A stretch of DNA of 32,617 nucleotides from Gammaproteobacteria bacterium. GTDB taxonomy: Bacteria > Pseudomonadota > Gammaproteobacteria > Arenicellales > JAANXG01. Below, in pieces: positions 2,876-31,091 of the stretch (position 1 is the first letter of the stretch; the number at the start of each line of letters is the position of its first letter). A program made the position numbers and the translations under genes. The notes under the pieces were generated by a model that was not told the DNA's origin, did not search any database, and worked only from the letters and a program-made list of their open reading frames with translations. The stretch covers positions 1 through 32,617 of the forward strand of contig JAANXG010000004.1 in the NCBI GenBank assembly GCA_018263405.1, written 5' to 3'.

Positions 2876-3023
2876 TGTAGGGGCAGGGTTGTCTTTCAGG
2901 GACGCTGTAAGAAGTGGCATAGGGAAGTGCCGTTTACGGAGCTAAGGATGCAATACATCCTTGTACGCTCTGTCGAAAGCCTCCGTGCTTTCGACAGCCC
3001 CGAAAGACAACCCTACCCCTACA
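2876..3023. repeat. Structured inverted-repeat element (22-bp arms, one mismatch, with internal hairpins)
   Basis: tgtaggggcagggttgtctttc (2876-2897) versus gaaagacaaccctacccctaca (3002-3023); internal stems aaggatg/catcctt (2944-2962) and tgtcgaaagc/gctttcgaca (2971-2996). Confidence 0.75.
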
Positions 3024-3050
3024 TTCTTGCACGGGGTTATTGAGAAATTA
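3006..3050 (+). repeat. Family C repeat, copy 1
   Basis: gacaaccctacccctacattcttgcacggggttattgagaaatta, similar to 4007-4050 and 5301-5344. Confidence 0.8.
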
Positions 3051-3885: not shown

Positions 3886-4006
3886 TGTCGAACTACCCAA
3901 GTCTGGTAAGTCGTGATTGAAATCGTGAAGGGGGATAGTACCACCCTTCAAGATGATATTTACGGGTACAGAACCCCGCAGGAGTGCACTTGCACAATTC
4001 CCTAAT

Positions 4007-4050
4007 GACAACCCTGCCCCCACATTCTTACACGGGGTTACTGAGAACTT
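4007..4050 (+). repeat. Family C repeat, copy 2
   Basis: gacaaccctgcccccacattcttacacggggttactgagaactt. Confidence 0.8.
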
Positions 4051-4069
4051 GTCAGGTATTTGAATCCAT

Positions 4070-5300: not shown

Positions 5301-5344
5301 AACAATCCCGCCCCCATATTCTGCACGGGGTTATCGATAACTTA
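5301..5344 (+). repeat. Family C repeat, copy 3
   Basis: aacaatcccgcccccatattctgcacggggttatcgataactta. Confidence 0.75.
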
Positions 5345-5349
5345 GGGCT

Positions 5350-5823
5350 CTATCTCGAACGGATGCGCTCGATCAGTTCGGTTGTAGAACAGTCGTATTC
5401 GAATGGAATAGAGTGTATCTGACCGCCCCGGTACTTTACTGCCTCACCGCCGGCGATTTCATCGATGCTCCAGTCTCCTCCCTTGACCAGGTGGTCGGGT
5501 TCCACGAGATTAATTAGCTGTTCCGGAGTGTCTTCGTCAAAGGGAACGACAATATCGACGCTTTCGAGCGCTGCCAGCACAGCCATGCGGTCTTCAAGGC
5601 AGTTAACGGGACGGTCCGGCGATTTATCGAGCCGTTTGACGGAGGCGTCAGTATTAACCCCTACGACCAGGGATCTGCCGAAGGCAGCCGCCCGGGCCAA
5701 GTACGTCACGTGGCCCCGGTGTAGTATGTCAAAACATCCATTGGTAAAGACAATTGGTTTCGTCAGCCCTTCCAGGATATTTTGTAGTTCGCTTCGATCA
5801 CGAACAATCTTTTCGTCCACCAC
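5350..5823 (-). CDS. rfaE2: D-glycero-beta-D-manno-heptose 1-phosphate adenylyltransferase (HldE C-terminal domain / RfaE2)
   Basis: [50 protein letters not shown]. Confidence 0.9.
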
Positions 5824-5825
5824 GA

Positions 5826-5990
5826 TTAATCCACGTATTCGAATACCTTGACAACAGGGATGACACCGTCAACGTGGCGCACGACGTCGATGGTGGTGAC
5901 AGTGGCTGCGCCTGCAATTGTTGCAACGCATCTGTTCAACAATACGATACAAGCTAAAACACCAAACAGACGGCACAAATTAATCGCCAT
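5826..5990 (-). pseudogene. dolP: 54-aa DolP (YraP)-like remnant: signal region fused directly to the last BON-domain residues
   Basis: Manual translation [54 protein letters not shown]; located directly after gmhA/diaA where dolP is expected; too short for the supplied ORF track. Confidence 0.6.
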
Positions 5991-6573
5991 GCCCAAAGAT
6001 CTTCCAGTCGATCAGGTCGCATATGCAGTGAATTATCAGCCCATGTATCTCCTGGACTCTGGCCGTGGACTTGCCGGGAGCGAGGATATTGATATCTTCA
6101 CCCCTCATGACTTGGGCGGCTTGACCACCGTCGCGGCCATTCAGTGCAATGCAAATCATGTCTTTTTCATGCCCGGCATGCAAAGCTTTGGTGATATTGG
6201 CAGAATTTCCAGATGTAGTGATGGCAAATAAAATGTCATCCGGTTGGCCGAGTGCGTGAATTTGTCGTCCGAATATATCGCTGTAGTCGTAATCGTTCGC
6301 GATAGAGGTCAGTGTTGATGCGTCTGTCGTAATGGCCACGGCAGGTAGCCCGGGACGTTCGGCTTCGAAACGATTCAATAACTCCGACGAAAAGTGCTGA
6401 GCGTCGGCAGCGGATCCGCCGTTGCCACAGATCAATATTTTCCCACCATTAAGCAACGTCCGGGAGATACGGTCGGCAGCGAGGGATATCGGTTCAACCA
6501 GTGGCTCAACCGCCGCTTGTAGATTTGCGATACATTCGTTGAAGTGCGCGGCGACCCTGTCTGTCTGTTTCAT
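5980..6573 (-). CDS. gmhA: SIS-domain phosphoheptose isomerase / DiaA family
   Basis: ILICGNGGSAADAQHFSSELLNRFE, TTSGNSANI; synteny lpoA-yraN-diaA. Confidence 0.85.
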   Translation of the reverse strand: MKQTDRVAAHFNECIANLQAAVEPLVEPISLAADRISRTLLNGGKILICGNGGSAADAQHFSSELLNRFEAERPGLPAVAITTDASTLTSIANDYDYSDIFGRQIHALGQPDDILFAITTSGNSANITKALHAGHEKDMICIALNGRDGGQAAQVMRGEDINILAPGKSTARVQEIHGLIIHCICDLIDWKIFGHGD

Positions 6574-7065: not shown

Positions 7066-9028
7066 CTTTTATGAATTTCGCCCATTCCGGGTGGCGGTGC
7101 ACACGGCCGTCTTTTCCGATAATCAACTCGGACGTCAGCCCGTTCAATCGCGTATCGCCGGCCTGGGGTGGACGAGCGGCCAGAAGAGCGAGTTGGTATG
7201 AACCATAACCAAATGCGAACAACTCTGACGAAACATCGGTAAACCCGGCGTTTTTCAGCAATGTTTTCAGTTTGTCGATACGCGCGGTATTTGCGATCGT
7301 CCAGGGCATGTCCGGGAACATGATGCCGTCAAGATCGGTGTCCTTGATGGTGTCCGCTGCTCCCGTGTATACGTGCGAGGTGCTGTAAACCGGCAGGTCA
7401 TGGCCCTGGAAAAAATTAATCTGTGGTTTGAGAAGCCTTGCTTCGTCGGGTCGGGCGGCCATGAACAGTGCGTCAATATCGCGGCGGCGGCGTGCGTCGA
7501 AGTGCAGGTTTAGCCGGCTTTTCGCTTGCAGGAATGCCTTGCGATTCTCGCTTTCGGTGAGGTTGAACAATTTGTTAATGGGCACCGTAAAGTCATCGGA
7601 AGCCGGCGCATAGGGCTGTGATTCGGCCAAGGTCCCACCGAGCGTCTCCCAATGCCCGACAAATGCGTCGTAGATTCGACGACCCCATTCGTCGTTTGGA
7701 TACAAAGTAGCGAGTCGACGATGCCCCGAGGCATACATGAACTCCGCGACTTGTTTCGCTTCCGATTCCGGCGCCAGGTCAAACTGGTAGGACCCGGTTG
7801 CCAGTGAATATTCCGTCGAGGAGCCGCCGAGCAGCACGATCGGCTTTTCTGGTTGCCGCGACTCGAGCAAGGCATTTACCGCCGATCTTCCCAGCGGTCC
7901 CACGATCACATTCGCGCCATCGGATGCCGCGACACCGACATAGTTGCCGGCCAGCGACGGTTCTCCGCCTACGTCATAGAAGACCACATTGGGGCGACGT
8001 GGATCGGTGTCGGTATGGTGGCCCGCATAGAATCCGTTGTAGACCCTCTGCGCGGCGGTGCCGAAATTAGACGAAAGTGGCAGCAGCAGCGCGACCTGGC
8101 GGATCTCCGGCGTACGGAGAGGCGGCAGCAATGCAGTGGTGAAATCGACCGCGGGGTGAAAGCTGTTGGCGTTGATCCACTGGGTTACGGCGGATCGCAA
8201 ACCGTGCCGATCTCCCACAAACTCCAAAAACAAAATTGCGATGTCCAGCCATCCGCGGAGCTCGTCCGCTGCACCGACCTGGCCCGCCAACTGCAGTTCC
8301 AGTCCATTCAAATGGCCGAGCGCAAACCAGATTCGATTATGGTTATCGTCGATCGCCTGCGCATCGGTTAGTAAGTTGCCCCGTCCAATCCAGGCCTTGG
8401 CGGCATCCAGGGGTTGCCCTTGAAGTAGGTCGATGCGCGCCTTAAGATCCATGCCGCGGGAGACGTACGTTGGGTCAATGTTTTGGGCGCGGAGACTGCG
8501 CTCCACGAGCCGCATGGCTCGATCCAGGTTATCTTCCTGAAAGCTTATTTCCGCCCGGAGCAGGCGTTTACGGGCACGATGCACGGGTGCCAGTCCGCGC
8601 ACGTCTATCTTGTTTAGAACGGCTTCGGCATCTTGTAGATCGCCCTTGTCGATCAGCTTATGGACCGCATCAAGATACGCGGTTTGACGGAACGGTGGCG
8701 GGGAGTCGAGGGCTTCGCGCAAATCCGCCCTGATCGATTCTTCCGGGCTCTTGGCTTGCTCGCCCGTATCGAATCCGGAATCCAATTCCAGGTCCTCTAG
8801 CGGAATCACCTGGACATTATCCGATTGTTCGGTCGATTTTTCCGCACCCTGCTCCTCGTCGCCGCGCACGGGTATAGTATCGCAGGCGCTTAGGAGTAAC
8901 ACCGCGAGGGCGACGACAAAAAAGCTGAATGGTGCGGACAATGCGGTTTGTCGAATGTATAGATTGGGCAGGAGTATAGCGAGTGGATGACGTACGAGGC
9001 AAAGCGGGCACGCTCTACGTGGTAGCAA
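7037..9028 (-). CDS. lpoA: LpoA/LppC-type lipoprotein, activator of PBP1A; start may be further downstream
   Basis: Lipobox LLLSAC, C-terminal periplasmic-binding-like domain (RQVALLLPLSSNFGTAAQRVYNGFYAG); next to yraN and divergent from rsmI. Confidence 0.85.
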   Translation of the reverse strand: MLPRRACPLCLVRHPLAILLPNLYIRQTALSAPFSFFVVALAVLLLSACDTIPVRGDEEQGAEKSTEQSDNVQVIPLEDLELDSGFDTGEQAKSPEESIRADLREALDSPPPFRQTAYLDAVHKLIDKGDLQDAEAVLNKIDVRGLAPVHRARKRLLRAEISFQEDNLDRAMRLVERSLRAQNIDPTYVSRGMDLKARIDLLQGQPLDAAKAWIGRGNLLTDAQAIDDNHNRIWFALGHLNGLELQLAGQVGAADELRGWLDIAILFLEFVGDRHGLRSAVTQWINANSFHPAVDFTTALLPPLRTPEIRQVALLLPLSSNFGTAAQRVYNGFYAGHHTDTDPRRPNVVFYDVGGEPSLAGNYVGVAASDGANVIVGPLGRSAVNALLESRQPEKPIVLLGGSSTEYSLATGSYQFDLAPESEAKQVAEFMYASGHRRLATLYPNDEWGRRIYDAFVGHWETLGGTLAESQPYAPASDDFTVPINKLFNLTESENRKAFLQAKSRLNLHFDARRRRDIDALFMAARPDEARLLKPQINFFQGHDLPVYSTSHVYTGAADTIKDTDLDGIMFPDMPWTIANTARIDKLKTLLKNAGFTDVSSELFAFGYGSYQLALLAARPPQAGDTRLNGLTSELIIGKDGRVHRHPEWAKFIKGVPARIWTH

Positions 9029-9819
9029 CGCCTATCGGCAATCTTGCGGATATGAGCCACCGGGCGACATCTACACTGCAGTGCGTGGACCTCATTGCCG
9101 CAGAAGACACCCGCCAAACCGGTAGGCTGTGCTCGCATTTTTCGATCGACACGCCGATGGCGGCATACCACGAGCACAACGAAGTTCAACAAACGCCGGT
9201 GTTGTTGGATCGATTGCTGAAAGGCGATGATGTGGCGTTGGTCAGCGATGCGGGCAGCCCGTTGATTAGCGATCCCGGTTATCGTCTGGTGGCGGCAGCG
9301 CGCGATGCATTACTCACCGTCGTGCCGATTCCCGGCCCTTGTGCCGCTATTGCGGCGATTTCAGTCGCGGGCTTGGCCTGCCACCATTTTCACTTTGAAG
9401 GTTTTCTGCCCGGCAAATCCGGGACGCGGCGTAACCGTTTGCAAAAGTTGCGGGCGATGCCCGATACCTTGATTTTTTATGAGTCCATACATCGCCACGA
9501 AGACATGCTTCAGGATCTGTGTGAAGTTCTCGGCGGCGAGCGCCGGGCGGTATTGGCCCGGGAATTGACGAAGTTGCATGAAACGATTTATCGAAATACT
9601 TTGCAAGAAATTCGGGAATGGGTTGCGGCGAATCCCCATCGGCAAAAGGGCGAGTTTGTCATTCTCGTGGAAGGCGCCGCCGAAGGGGAGGCGGATGCCC
9701 GGGCGGAACATGTGCTTGAATTGTTGAGCGAGCAATTGTCACCGGGCCAGGCGGCGGAACTGGCGGCCAAAATTACCGGTGTGCCCCGCAATCGGCTGTA
9801 TAAGAGTAAATTACGGTGA
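8983..9819 (+). CDS. rsmI: 16S rRNA 2'-O-ribose C1402 methyltransferase RsmI; stop codon lies inside a repeat B arm
   Basis: GTLYVVATPIGNLADMSHRA, AAEDTRQTGRL, DAGSPLISDPGYRLV; stop TGA at 9817-9819. Confidence 0.92.
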   Translation: MDDVRGKAGTLYVVATPIGNLADMSHRATSTLQCVDLIAAEDTRQTGRLCSHFSIDTPMAAYHEHNEVQQTPVLLDRLLKGDDVALVSDAGSPLISDPGYRLVAAARDALLTVVPIPGPCAAIAAISVAGLACHHFHFEGFLPGKSGTRRNRLQKLRAMPDTLIFYESIHRHEDMLQDLCEVLGGERRAVLARELTKLHETIYRNTLQEIREWVAANPHRQKGEFVILVEGAAEGEADARAEHVLELLSEQLSPGQAAELAAKITGVPRNRLYKSKLR

Positions 9820-9885
9820 CAGTTAACTTAATTCGCTCCCAGCAAATATTCGATCGGTCGAATTAAGTTAACTGTCACCGTAATT
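9809..9885 (+). mobile_element. Family B hairpin element, copy 1 (77 bp; perfect 27-bp inverted repeats; 23-nt loop)
   Basis: aattacggtgacagttaacttaattcg (9809-9835) / cgaattaagttaactgtcaccgtaatt (9859-9885); loop ctcccagcaaatattcgatcggt. Confidence 0.85.
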
Positions 9886-9938
9886 CCTAATTCAGATATA
9901 TCTTGTCCTGCACTGCGCGCGGGCGTATGTTCCGCACT

Positions 9939-10420
9939 GGGAAGTCAGCCGAACGGTCGCTCGTCATTGTTTGCGATTTGCGGTGTGCGGATCCCCGTCG
10001 CTCGTGCATCTCGAGTGCCGGGTAAGGTGACGGGAGGAAAGTCCGGGCTCCACAGGGCCGGGTGCCAGGTAACTCCTGGGCGGCGTGAGCCGACGGAAAG
10101 TGCCGCAGAAAAGATACCGCCCCGGCACTTAATTATGGTGACAGTTAACTTAATTCGACCGATCGAATATTTGCTGGGAGCGAATTAAGTTAACTGTCAC
10201 CATAATTAAGTGCCGGGGTAAGGGTGAAAAGGTGCGGTAAGAGCGCACCGCGCTTCTGGTAACAGAAGTGGCAGGGTAAACCCCACCCGGAGCAAGGCCG
10301 AATAGGAGTCCAAAGGCGTGGCCCACGCCGGACTCGGGTAGGTCGCTTGAGGCGGGCGGTGACGTTCGTCCCAGATGAATGACCGTTCTCGACAGAACCC
10401 GGCTTACAGGCTGACTTCCC
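9939..10420 (+). ncRNA. rnpB: RNase P RNA, bacterial type A, interrupted/extended in helix P12 by a family B element
   Basis: P1 pairing gggaagtcagcc (9939-9950) / ggctgacttccc (10409-10420); conserved gaggaaagtccgggctcc, taagggtgaaaaggtgcggtaagagcgcacc, ggtaaaccccacccggagcaaggccgaatagg, gacagaacccggcttacaggctgac. Confidence 0.93.
10131..10207 (-). mobile_element. Family B hairpin element, copy 2, inside rnpB P12 (inverted relative to copy 1)
   Basis: Loop 10158-10180 is the exact reverse complement of the copy 1 loop; arms identical except one C/T position that is compensated in the other arm; with the P12 base the stem is a perfect 38 bp (10120-10157 / 10181-10218). Confidence 0.88.
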
Positions 10421-10563
10421 GTTTTCCGCTCTCGACGATCCCCCAATTACCTTTTAAATCAGCAGGTTTCGATGATCTTATAAAGCAATACTCTAATAAT
10501 CAGAAACCGTTATAAGTTTCTGTACGGAAAGGACTTTTTGGCCGATCAGTGGGCCAAAATCGC

Positions 10564-12056: not shown

Positions 12057-12312
12057 CGCCATGGTGGTACTGGCTGTTTTGGTCGTTCTAAGCAGTTTTA
12101 CCGCCATATTCGTGCGCCATCAGCATCGCTTGACATTCAATGCGCTTCAGTTCCAGCAACAACAGCGGGACAGTCTCAACACCGAATGGCACCAGCTTTT
12201 GTTGGAGCAAAGCACTTGGTCCTTCCGGCATTTTGTCGAAAAGAAGGCGCGCGACCGGCTCGATATGGTGTTTCCCAAGTCCATCCACCGGTTGGTGGTT
12301 GAAGGGCGATGA
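12049..12312 (+). CDS. ftsL: Cell division protein FtsL
   Basis: Small single-pass membrane protein between rsmH and ftsI. Confidence 0.88.
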   Translation: MRNAMVVLAVLVVLSSFTAIFVRHQHRLTFNALQFQQQQRDSLNTEWHQLLLEQSTWSFRHFVEKKARDRLDMVFPKSIHRLVVEGR

Positions 12313-14051
12313 ACGATAAGACCAACAAGTTGGTGCACGGTTTCCGCCATTACCTGGTGCTGTCGTTACTGGTAGCCGGACTGGGGTTGCTCGTGGCTCG
12401 TGCCGCCCAGTTGCAGTTGTTCCAGCACGAGTTCCTTCAGTCCAAGGGAAATATCAACTACTTGACGGTGCACGTGTCCCACGCGAACCGAGGCATGATT
12501 CTGGACCGCCATGGAGAGCCACTGGCTGTCAGCAGTCCCGTCGATTCAGTCGTGGCGGATCCCAAATCGGTACTTCGGGAAGGCGCTTTCGAAAACGACA
12601 TTGCATGGAACACCTTGGCGGAATTAATCGACGAACCCGTGGCGAAGATCAAGCAAAAAATTACCCGAAACCCCGAATCGGAGTTCGCTTACCTGAAACG
12701 GCACCTCGATGATCCGGAGCGTGCCCGAGAAGTTGAAGACCTGGGTATACCCGGCATCCAATTAAGACGCGAATACAAGCGCTATTATCCGGGTGGGCCG
12801 GTGTTCGGCCATGTCGTTGGATTTACGGACACGGATCAAATCGGCTTGAGCGGGGTTGAAAAAACATTCAATGAACAATTAGCCGGGACATCGGGTCGGA
12901 CACGCGTGCTCAGGGACGGCCAGGGACGCGTCATCGAATACGTCGAGCAGTTGTCCCCCACGGTCGACGGCGAGGACGTGCGCCTGAGCATCGATGCCCG
13001 CGTGCAATATCTCGCCTTTCGGTATCTCAAAGCGGCGTTCGAAAAACACCGCGCGGATTCGGGGAGTGCCGTGATCCTCGATGCGCGTACCGGTGAAATT
13101 CTGGCGATGGTGAACGAACCGACGATCAATCCCAATACCCGCAATCGCGCGGAACTGGCGTCCGTCAACGCCCGCAACCGGGTGGTGCAGTCGATATTCG
13201 AACCGGGATCCGCCATTAAACCGTTTACCATTGCCGCCGCACTGAATAGTGGAAAGTTCCTACCGGATTCAAGGATCGATACGACGCCGGGTTCGTTCAC
13301 GGTAGGCGGATATCCGATACGCGACTACCGAAACCTCGGTTTGCTGACAGTAGCCCGCGTTCTCATAAAATCCAGCAATGTGGGTGCGGCGAAAGTGGCG
13401 CTCTGACTTGTGCTCTTCCGATCTCCCGGTCAATTCCGCGATCTTGGTTTTGGGCGGCCAACCGGCATTCCTCTGCCCGGTGAAGAATCCGGTCAAGCAC
13501 CGCCCACCGGGCCGCTCCGCCCGCGCGCTCAGGCTTCATTGGCTTACGGCTATGGGCTGTCAACGAATGCCTTGCAGCTTGCTCGGGCCTACACCGTGTT
13601 GGCCGGCGACGGACGGATGCTGGAAGTCCGCTTGACTCCGGGCCCGGCGAGCTACAGCGGCCGGGTCTATGGCTCCGAGGTGGTGCGGCTATTGCAGGGC
13701 ATGCTGGAAAAAGTAACATCCGCGGCCGGTACCGGGGTGAATGCGCAATTGCTGGACTATACCGAAGCCGGTAAGACCGGCACGGTCGTTAAATGGCTGG
13801 AGTCGGAAGGCCGATACGCCGAGGACCAGTACTTGTCCGTGTTTGCCGGTTACGCACCGGCTCGGGACCCGCGGCTGGTCATGGTTGTGGTGGTGGATAA
13901 CCCCAAGGGCGAGGCCTATTACGGCGGCCTCGTGTCGGCGCCGGTGTTCTCCAAGGTGATGAACGGCGCGCTGCATCTCCTTAACGTGCCATTCCGACCC
14001 GGCGAGGACGCGCTGCGTCAGGCGATGTTTAAAGGAGGTTCGGATACATGA
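12309..14051 (+). pseudogene. ftsI: Peptidoglycan transpeptidase FtsI (PBP3), split by an in-frame TGA at 13404-13406; the lesion looks like an assembly artefact, not a true pseudogene
   Basis: ORFs 12309-13406 and 13410-14051 are in the same frame; SAIKPF and SSN motifs upstream, KTGT downstream. Confidence 0.9.
13409..13424 (+). other. Illumina adapter sequence embedded in ftsI (TGTGCTCTTCCGATCT)
   Basis: 16-nt exact match to the 3' end of the TruSeq Read 2 adapter (...CAGACGTGTGCTCTTCCGATCT). Confidence 0.92.
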
Positions 14052-28235: not shown

Positions 28236-29150
28236 ATGATTCGACAAAGAACGCTAAAAAACGTAATTAGGGCCACTGGGGTAGGGCTCCACACTGGAGA
28301 AAAGGTCTATTTAACGTTGCGGCCGGCGGCGCCGAGTACCGGTATCGTATTCCGCAGAGTGGACCTGGATCCCCCCGTTGACGTTCCCGCGTGTTGCGAG
28401 AACGTGGGCGATACACGCTTATCCACGACCTTGCACAAAGGAGATGTCTGGATCTCGACCGTTGAACACTTGATGTCGGCGTTCGCGGGTCTAGGTATCG
28501 ACAACGCCTATGTGGATTTAACGGCGCCGGAAGTGCCGATTATGGATGGCAGTGCGGGACCATTCGTTTTTTTGATCCAATCCGCCGGCATTGAGGAACA
28601 GTTGTGGCCCAAGCGCTTTATCCGGATCAAGAAACCGCTCGTTTTGGAGGAAGGCGATAAATGGGCGCGGTTCGATCCCTTGAATGGGTTCAAGGTGTCG
28701 TTCGGTATCGAATTTAATCACCCGATTTTTAGTCAATCGCTGCAACGATCAACAATCGATTTCTCGACAACATCGTTTGTCAAGGAAGTGAGCCGTGCCC
28801 GGACATTCGGTTTTATGCACGACGTTGAGGCATTGAGAAAATCGGGGCTTGCCAGAGGAGGAAGCCTCGATAACGCCATTGTCATGGACTCGTACCATAT
28901 TCTGAACGAGGATGGACTCCGCTACGAGGATGAATTCGTCAAGCACAAGATCCTCGATGCGATTGGAGATCTGTACCTGCTGGGACATCCGCTGATCGGC
29001 GCGTTCAGTGCTCATAAATCGGGACATGCCCTGAATAACGAAATCTTGCGAATGCTGCTCAAAGCGGAAGAAATCTGGGAGCTGGTGTCCTTTGACGACG
29101 CCGACGATGCGCCACTGGCGTTTGTGCATCCATTGACGGCATCGGCTTAG
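28236..29150 (+). CDS. lpxC: UDP-3-O-acyl-GlcNAc deacetylase LpxC; stop TAG overlaps repeat A
   Basis: [47 protein letters not shown]. Confidence 0.96.
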
Positions 29151-29230
29151 GGCTCGCGCAAAAATAACTTCACAGAATTCGCGCCCGAAGACGGGATGTG
29201 AAAATGGGAAGTTATTTTTGCGCGAGCCCT
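29149..29230. mobile_element. Family A hairpin element, uninterrupted copy (82 bp; 22-bp perfect inverted repeats)
   Basis: agggctcgcgcaaaaataactt (29149-29170) / aagttatttttgcgcgagccct (29209-29230); inner cccgaagacggg hairpin. Confidence 0.9.
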
Positions 29231-29261
29231 TAGAAAACGCAATAAGCCGAACGGCACGTAG

Positions 29262-29708: not shown

Positions 29709-30677
29709 ATGCAAGTCATACTCCTTCCCAAAGGTTCGGGTCCCAGCCGAGTATATCGGTTTCGGATTGTTCTCGTCTGCTCCATCGTGGCCGGCGTATT
29801 GCTCGCTATCGGTGTTGGCGGCGGTTATTTCGGGTATCGCATCGGTAGCGATCTGGCCCATCTGGAACAGCGCGTGCCCGAGATCCAAGTCGAGAGTTTC
29901 GCCGCGGTTGGCGTGGAAAAACTGTTTGATCTGAAAGCGAGCGTGGATGAACAGCGCCGCATGTTGCAGGAGTCCCGCCGGCGCGTGGGCGATCGCTTTG
30001 ACAGCCTGGGTCGGCGCCTCGGAAGGCTCCAGGCCCATGTCTCGCGCATCGATGCCCTCGGCCTTCGATTGACCGATATGGCGGGACTCGACCCCGATGA
30101 ATTCGGCTTCGATAAGACGCCGGCTTTGGGCGGACCGGGGCGCCCCGCACCCTGGAAGTCGTTTCGAGAACCGGAATTAACGCAATCCCTGGAAATTATG
30201 GAGATCGCGCTTGAGGCAAAGGAGGGTGAATTACGGATTCTCGAGGCCATGATGATGAACCGGGAACTACAGAAAAAGCAATATCCCCGGGGTTGGCCGA
30301 TCCTTGATGGCGGTTGGATAAGCTCCGGCTACGGGGGTCGAACGGACCCGTTCACCGGTGGAAAAGAATTTCATGAAGGTGTAGATATCGCCGCGCGGAG
30401 CGGGTCCGAGCTGCGCGCCATGGCGGCGGGCGTGGTCGGTTTTGCCGGGGAAAAACCGGGTTATGGTCTAGTTATCGAAATCAATCATGGCAACGGCTAC
30501 GAGACGCGCTATGCGCATGCAAAGAAGTTGATCGCAAGCAGGGGCGAGCGCGTTAAGAAAGGCGATATTGTCGCGCTGGTGGGCAGTACGGGACGTTCGA
30601 CGGGCAGCCATGTGCATATCGAGGTTCTGAAAAACGGCAAGGCGGTTAACCCCGGTGGGCATCTGCATCCCTCCTAA
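29709..30677 (+). CDS. M23-family murein hydrolase activator/endopeptidase
   Basis: SGYGGRTDPFTGGKEFHEGVDIAARSGSELRAMAAGVV...HVHIEVLKNGKAVNP; N-terminal TM and coiled coil. Confidence 0.92.
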   Translation: MQVILLPKGSGPSRVYRFRIVLVCSIVAGVLLAIGVGGGYFGYRIGSDLAHLEQRVPEIQVESFAAVGVEKLFDLKASVDEQRRMLQESRRRVGDRFDSLGRRLGRLQAHVSRIDALGLRLTDMAGLDPDEFGFDKTPALGGPGRPAPWKSFREPELTQSLEIMEIALEAKEGELRILEAMMMNRELQKKQYPRGWPILDGGWISSGYGGRTDPFTGGKEFHEGVDIAARSGSELRAMAAGVVGFAGEKPGYGLVIEINHGNGYETRYAHAKKLIASRGERVKKGDIVALVGSTGRSTGSHVHIEVLKNGKAVNPGGHLHPS

Positions 30678-31020
30678 GGGCTCGCGCAAAAATAACTTCC
30701 CATTTTCACATCCCGTCTTCGGGCCATCTTTGAACGATCCTCAATCGAAAAATCCTCATAGTAGCCCTGCTAGGAGCCTGTCGGACTTAGGATGAATCTA
30801 CTGCGGCGGCGGGAGATCGGCCCACTTTCCCGATTTATTTCGTTAAATAGCTGGCTATTCGCCTCAATAAATCGAAAAATTGGTCTCGATTTCCCACCTA
30901 CCTCGCTACGATCCCCTAAGTCCGACAGGCTCCTAGTACTGCGGTTTTGCTCCATCGGATCGTCCAAATCTAACCCAAATTCGGGCGCGAATTCTGTGAA
31001 GTTATTTTTGCGCGAGCCCT
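30676..31020. mobile_element. Family A hairpin element, opposite orientation, interrupted by about 255 bp of palindromic insertion
   Basis: Left half 30675-30724 and right half 30980-31021 together reconstruct the reverse complement of 29149-29230; TTCGGGC present on both sides (30718-30724 and 30980-30986). Confidence 0.88.
30770..30936. mobile_element. Inner 167-bp element with perfect 22-bp inverted termini
   Basis: ctaggagcctgtcggacttagg (30770-30791) / cctaagtccgacaggctcctag (30915-30936); CTAG at both ends. Confidence 0.85.
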
Positions 31021-31091
31021 TACGGTAAATGCCGGAAAACAAGCATCGATTACATCGCCGACTATGTAATTACCCAGAGTCTGTATGAGTA

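Follow-up and report, generated by a model that had tools for sequence, protein, structure and literature searches.

A probable RAYT-associated palindrome in helix P12 of a gammaproteobacterial RNase P RNA, with counterparts in other lineages

The RNase P RNA gene of an uncultured gammaproteobacterium very probably carries a RAYT-associated miniature palindrome, inserted into the tip of helix P12, and different palindromes have very probably entered P12 in the same way, independently, in other lineages. An essential ribozyme would then have taken in transposase-linked miniature elements repeatedly, at one and the same helix, in at least three phyla. The window, the whole 32,617-nt stretch of DNA that was analysed, is contig C98 of a 1.93-Mb bin of 163 contigs.

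The rnpB gene (9941-10422, plus strand) matches RF00010 over the complete model (positions 1-367) at 341.5 bits in cmscan, far above the gathering score of 100, and belongs to class A, with catalysis predicted. It is the sole RF00010 match found by a genome search of the bin, which is 77% complete. The score is on par with the 336-350 bits of the best relatives, and the covariance model shows the predicted ribozyme core to be intact despite the insert. Helix P3 (9971-10021) is about 51 nt above the Rfam consensus length; P3 length varies in the rnpB of relatives as well, and no link of P3 to the repeat was seen. Upstream lies rsmI (8983-9819, plus strand), an open reading frame with TP_methylase and RsmI_C Pfam matches that ends inside a second copy of the repeat. 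The last rsmI codons and the stop codon (9809-9819) come from that copy, and the predicted RsmI protein stops a few residues before the end of the Pfam RsmI_C model (position 40 of 46). An RsmI-like reading frame also precedes rnpB in the related genomes G001, G003 and G006. A possible rnpB promoter (9902-9931, plus strand; CTTGTC, 18 nt, TATGTT), read by eye between the two repeat copies, was not called by a consensus scan.

Covariance-model alignment assigns the extra nucleotides of rnpB to P12, in agreement with the placement proposed in the first-pass annotation, and inverted-repeat search and folding both recover the 99-nt hairpin with a perfect 38-bp stem that it had described at 10120-10218 (plus strand). 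The two arms (10120-10157 and 10181-10218) are 38 nt each, 100% complementary, and 23 nt apart. The folding energy of the hairpin is -72.5 kcal/mol, compared with a mean of -21.7 for shuffled sequences (z = -15.6; no shuffle was as good), and the hairpin is retained in the minimum-energy fold of the full 482-nt RNA. The outer 11 bp of the stem, formed by CCCCGGCACTT (10120-10130, plus strand) and AAGTGCCGGGG (10208-10218, plus strand), lie outside the repeat; they are absent from the other copies and constitute a host part of P12 that is peculiar to this RNA. The remainder (10131-10207, plus strand) is the miniature palindrome, with 27-bp arms and a 23-nt centre.

Copies of the palindrome were located by sequence search of the genome, which returned about seven near-full copies plus halves. 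Besides the one in P12, near-full copies occur on C98 (the second copy in the window), C88, C76, C118, C69 and C4, and half copies on C71, C96, C79 and C5. The near-full copies have common 27-bp arms, some with defects, and a related centre. Within the window the repeat arm occurs four times, versus 0.00 expected. The second copy, which was already recognized in the first-pass annotation, is inverted and lies over the rsmI stop codon (9809-9885, minus strand), 245 nt from the P12 copy and in reverse-complement relation to it, with 97% identity over 77 nt. The sole differences between the two are the bases of one pair, the sixth of the palindrome, which is T-A in P12, C-G at rsmI and G-C in most other copies. 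Because this pair varies by compensated change, the arms change yet stay complementary.

At L004:1357-1432 and 1501-1577 and at L005:1501-1575 and 1600-1675, two of the near-full copies closely precede tRNA genes, by 69 nt (tRNA-Asn) and 25 nt (tRNA-Thr); they are located beside RNase P substrates, possibly by coincidence. Other short repeats also occur in this genome. The dispersed family CTAAGGGCTCGCGCAAAAATAACTT (126-154, 29146-29233, 30674-30724 and 30980-31022 in the window) forms inverted pairs of 51 and 41 nt that are 100% complementary, is found beside the C76 copy of the palindrome (L005) as well, and may be a second mobile palindrome. Two further short families between about 2.9 and 5.3 kb are the GGGGCAGGGTTGTCTTTC palindromes (2875-2911, 2998-3024 and 3989-4025) and the TGCACGGGGTTATTGAGAA direct repeats (3028-3050, 4029-4051 and 5322-5344).

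The only Y1_Tnp gene in the genome (C71:5027-5350, in a 222-aa frame) matches NF047646, the REP-associated tyrosine transposase model, exactly at the cut-off (80 of 80 bits), and by eye its frame retains the HVH motif and the YTELNPVRAG segment. A repeat arm lies on one side of the gene and diverged arms on the other, which is the usual RAYT layout. Because repeat arms flank the single RAYT-type gene of the genome, the palindrome is most plausibly a miniature element mobilised by a RAYT, and judging from this layout the transposase, of the Y1 HUH type and IS200/IS605-like, is the likely mobiliser. The palindrome is short and dispersed, as are RAYT-associated REP elements. Its sequence has no canonical GT[AG]G foot, so we file it as a RAYT-associated palindrome and not as a canonical REP. 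In a survey of the superfamily, the repeats of TnpA subclass 2.6 and class 3 were also without this foot (PMC6006769). Cleavage and joining of single-stranded REPs are established for the TnpA-REP of E. coli (PMC8266576).

The empty P12 that the first-pass annotation had suggested looking for in close relatives is found in the same family, where G001 and G003 have helices of 10 and 13 nt. Together with the dispersed copies and the RAYT gene flanked by repeat arms, these P12s lacking the element bear out its proposal of a mobile miniature element in P12. Among 60 relatives, G017 and genus g3 of the family are the only others in which the repeat arm was found, and the repeat is absent from the P12s read from g3. 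The first-pass annotation had also named long, unrelated P12s in relatives as a point that would tell against it. Such helices do exist in g3, where P12 is 68-91 nt and unrelated to the repeat of the window, but the inserted core described here is still a dispersed repeat. In the six g3 genomes searched, the 91-nt P12 of G009 has no match outside rnpB; since this is single-copy sequence, P12 also lengthens without mobile elements. P12s in this family are often long, and those made by a mobile element are a subset. In the sister genus g5, the P12s of G004 and G010 hold a different, 53-nt palindrome (GAATGGGGTCAGAGTAAA...), the core of which occurs 5 and 9 times in the respective genomes and was not found in G006 or G008, whose P12s differ. 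No RAYT gene occurs on the contigs that bear the repeat in G004 and G010.

Recurrence was addressed with a single scan of about 85,000 GTDB species for rnpB sequence followed by GGDGWCAG...CTGWCHCC, for which we estimate from information content that fewer than one chance match is expected. All 10 loci returned are confirmed RF00010 genes, at 263-343 bits, and two of them (L084 and L090) evidently correspond to G010 and G004. In the acidobacterial locus L083, P12 contains the palindrome GGGGTCAGATCTTG; the genome holds many paired copies, and copies at positions 5649 and 6713 of G060:C369 (Acidobacteria) enclose a Y1_Tnp gene at 5880-6206. Two Nitrospirota loci (L091 and L092) contain the palindrome GGGGTCAGGTCTCAACATTCAACATAA, copies of which are dispersed and, at G066:C191, lie on both sides of a Y1_Tnp gene. 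A gammaproteobacterium (L087) and a Halieaceae bin (L088) have a common P12 palindrome, GGGGTCAGACCCCTTTT; an excess over the control was seen in G063 among the matches listed, and we do not count dispersal as shown in this case.

Conservatively, the scan adds four independent insertions of different palindromes, in Acidobacteria, a Nitrospirota clade and two gammaproteobacterial groups, and the window brings the total to five, each of a different palindrome, across three phyla. All five palindromes start with GGDGWCAG, which the search pattern required, and diverge in the rest of their sequence. Dispersed copies were found for four of the five insertions (three of the four besides the window), and for three (two of the four) a RAYT gene lies between copies. 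The loci left out of this count comprise L089, where P12 is a degenerate two-hairpin structure, and two from Deltaproteobacteria (L085 and L086), which are true rnpB genes with P12 inserts that look like short repeats (GGAGTCAGGAGTC and GAGACAGAGACAG). The latter inserts (L085:5215-5294 and L086:4304-4399) resemble the short tandem repeats of cyanobacteria but occur outside that group.

Four Nitrospirota genomes (G066, G067, G069 and G070) carry the insert at an identical rnpB junction, whereas the P12s of G068 and G071 are 22-23 nt. In a small rnpB tree the latter two are nested beside the carriers, a topology that accommodates equally one gain followed by inheritance and a loss, or repeated gain. 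The P12 stems of the carriers are 29-31 bp and 91-100% identical, with rnpB flanks 92-99% identical. One pair has changed on both sides, as opposed to several one-sided or broken pairs, and the G069 stem has mismatches and an enlarged tip. As evidence of selection for pairing, a single two-sided change is too little. The pattern fits tolerated persistence and offers no clear indication that the helix is under selection. Two Nitrospirota relatives (L124, in G077, and L127, in G072) have long P12s of 131 and 97 nt that are not RAYT-like in appearance.

Most likely, the RAYT would have moved the palindrome as single-stranded DNA. A self-complementary insert at the P12 tip would extend a peripheral, loop-ended helix and spare the ribozyme core, and the effect on what is probably still a functional RNA may be near neutral. 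This could explain why insertions survive in P12, which may be one of few spots in an essential RNA that tolerate such an event. P12 is sometimes dispensable, with cyanobacteria cited as a case (PMC2858038), its tip is a frequent expansion site in Archaea and Eukarya (PMC12974513), and REPs inserted in tolerant parts of protein genes are known (PMC6006769, PMC3733652). The points against a RAYT-associated insertion are the missing GT[AG]G foot, the low copy number, the RAYT match at cut-off, the single-copy lengthening of P12 in relatives and an adapter artefact on the contig.

The inserted palindrome may in addition be processed. RNase III would cut the 38-bp P12, and the RNase P RNA would work in two pieces joined through protein and tertiary contacts, a possibility that we regard as plausible but less likely than not. 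The perfect duplex in the window and the long stems in Nitrospirota are of the kind that this predicts, and in 23S rRNA the excision of intervening sequences (IVSs) leaves an RNA that is fragmented yet functional (PMC4990558). Against it, the mismatches in the G069 stem indicate that a perfect duplex is not strictly kept. Somewhat more doubtful still is the general form of the proposal, that in several unrelated lineages RAYT palindromes have made P12 a long, perfect RNase III substrate and thereby a two-piece catalytic RNA.

It is improbable that the insert has been recruited and that selection maintains the long P12 for some role, for example in RNA stability, regulation or the binding of protein. 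The stem is largely kept across the Nitrospirota species, including the pair changed on both sides, and a compensated pair distinguishes the arms of the two copies in the window. Such palindromes are complementary as DNA wherever they are located, however, so pairing alone is no sign of selection on RNA. One-sided and broken pairs outnumber the lone two-sided change, the G069 tip is enlarged, and different lineages have different sequences in P12.

A repeat wrongly spliced into rnpB during metagenome assembly is very unlikely to account for the hairpin. Two repeat copies 245 nt apart could invite such an error, and the contig is not free of flaws: ftsI contains an Illumina adapter tail (GTGCTCTTCCGATCT; 13404-13424, with the adapter remnant at 13412-13424) and is split there into frames 12309-13406 and 13410-14051, a join artefact. 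In P12, by contrast, the stem runs 11 bp past the repeat in complementary sequence absent from other copies, the two nearby copies are not identical, being distinguished by a compensated pair, and comparable insertions are present in independent assemblies from other phyla. An origin of the genome-wide repeat from an rnpB whose P12 had grown by ordinary evolution, which the widely varying P12 lengths of relatives and the long g3 P12 matching only rnpB might suggest, is largely refuted by copies elsewhere, also beside the transposase gene, that are without the host P12 stem CCGGCACTT, and by the occurrence of the arm in g3 genomes whose P12s do not contain it.

The preferred reading, a RAYT-associated insertion that has recurred in P12, offers natural replicates for asking how expansion segments arise in structured RNAs, whether insertion into P12 reflects targeting or mere tolerance, and whether a bacterial RNase P RNA can be split naturally. 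Searches of an incomplete collection of open literature turned up no previous account of RAYT-type palindromes in RNase P RNA, of mobile or palindromic elements in rnpB, or of a split RNase P RNA.

Among known systems, the closest is that of the STRR sequences in the RNase P RNA of heterocyst-forming cyanobacteria, which Vioque is said to have described in 1997 (NAR 25:3471). There, P12 has reportedly been lengthened independently in related strains by sequence that is dispensable in vitro. As in the window, repeated genomic DNA invades rnpB, but the cyanobacterial inserts are short tandem repeats, whereas the insert described here is one RAYT-linked palindrome with no tandem units, and the phyla are others. 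REP and REPIN systems with their RAYT (TnpA-REP) genes likewise combine dispersed palindromes with one Y1 transposase gene that has copies of the repeat on either side (PMC3116915, PMC6006769, PMC8266576); the palindrome in the window differs from these in lacking the GT[AG]G foot, in its low copy number, and in having one copy inside an essential structural RNA instead of in extragenic DNA. Intragenic REPs and the Rickettsia palindromic elements are also palindromes inserted at tolerant sites of genes (PMC3733652), but those reported lie in protein genes, whereas the P12 palindrome sits in a ribozyme, where it forms a helix. The IVSs of 23S rRNA, for example in Coxiella, are stem-loop inserts in a peripheral helix of an essential RNA (PMC4990558), as is the P12 insert; they are excised by RNase III, a fate that may or may not be shared by the window insert, which is far shorter and has no ORF. 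Repeat invasion of RNase P RNA and the insertion of REPs in genes were thus already known. What is new is the recurrent presence of RAYT-type palindromes in P12, which adds a further class of element to the tandem repeats that had set the precedent in cyanobacteria.
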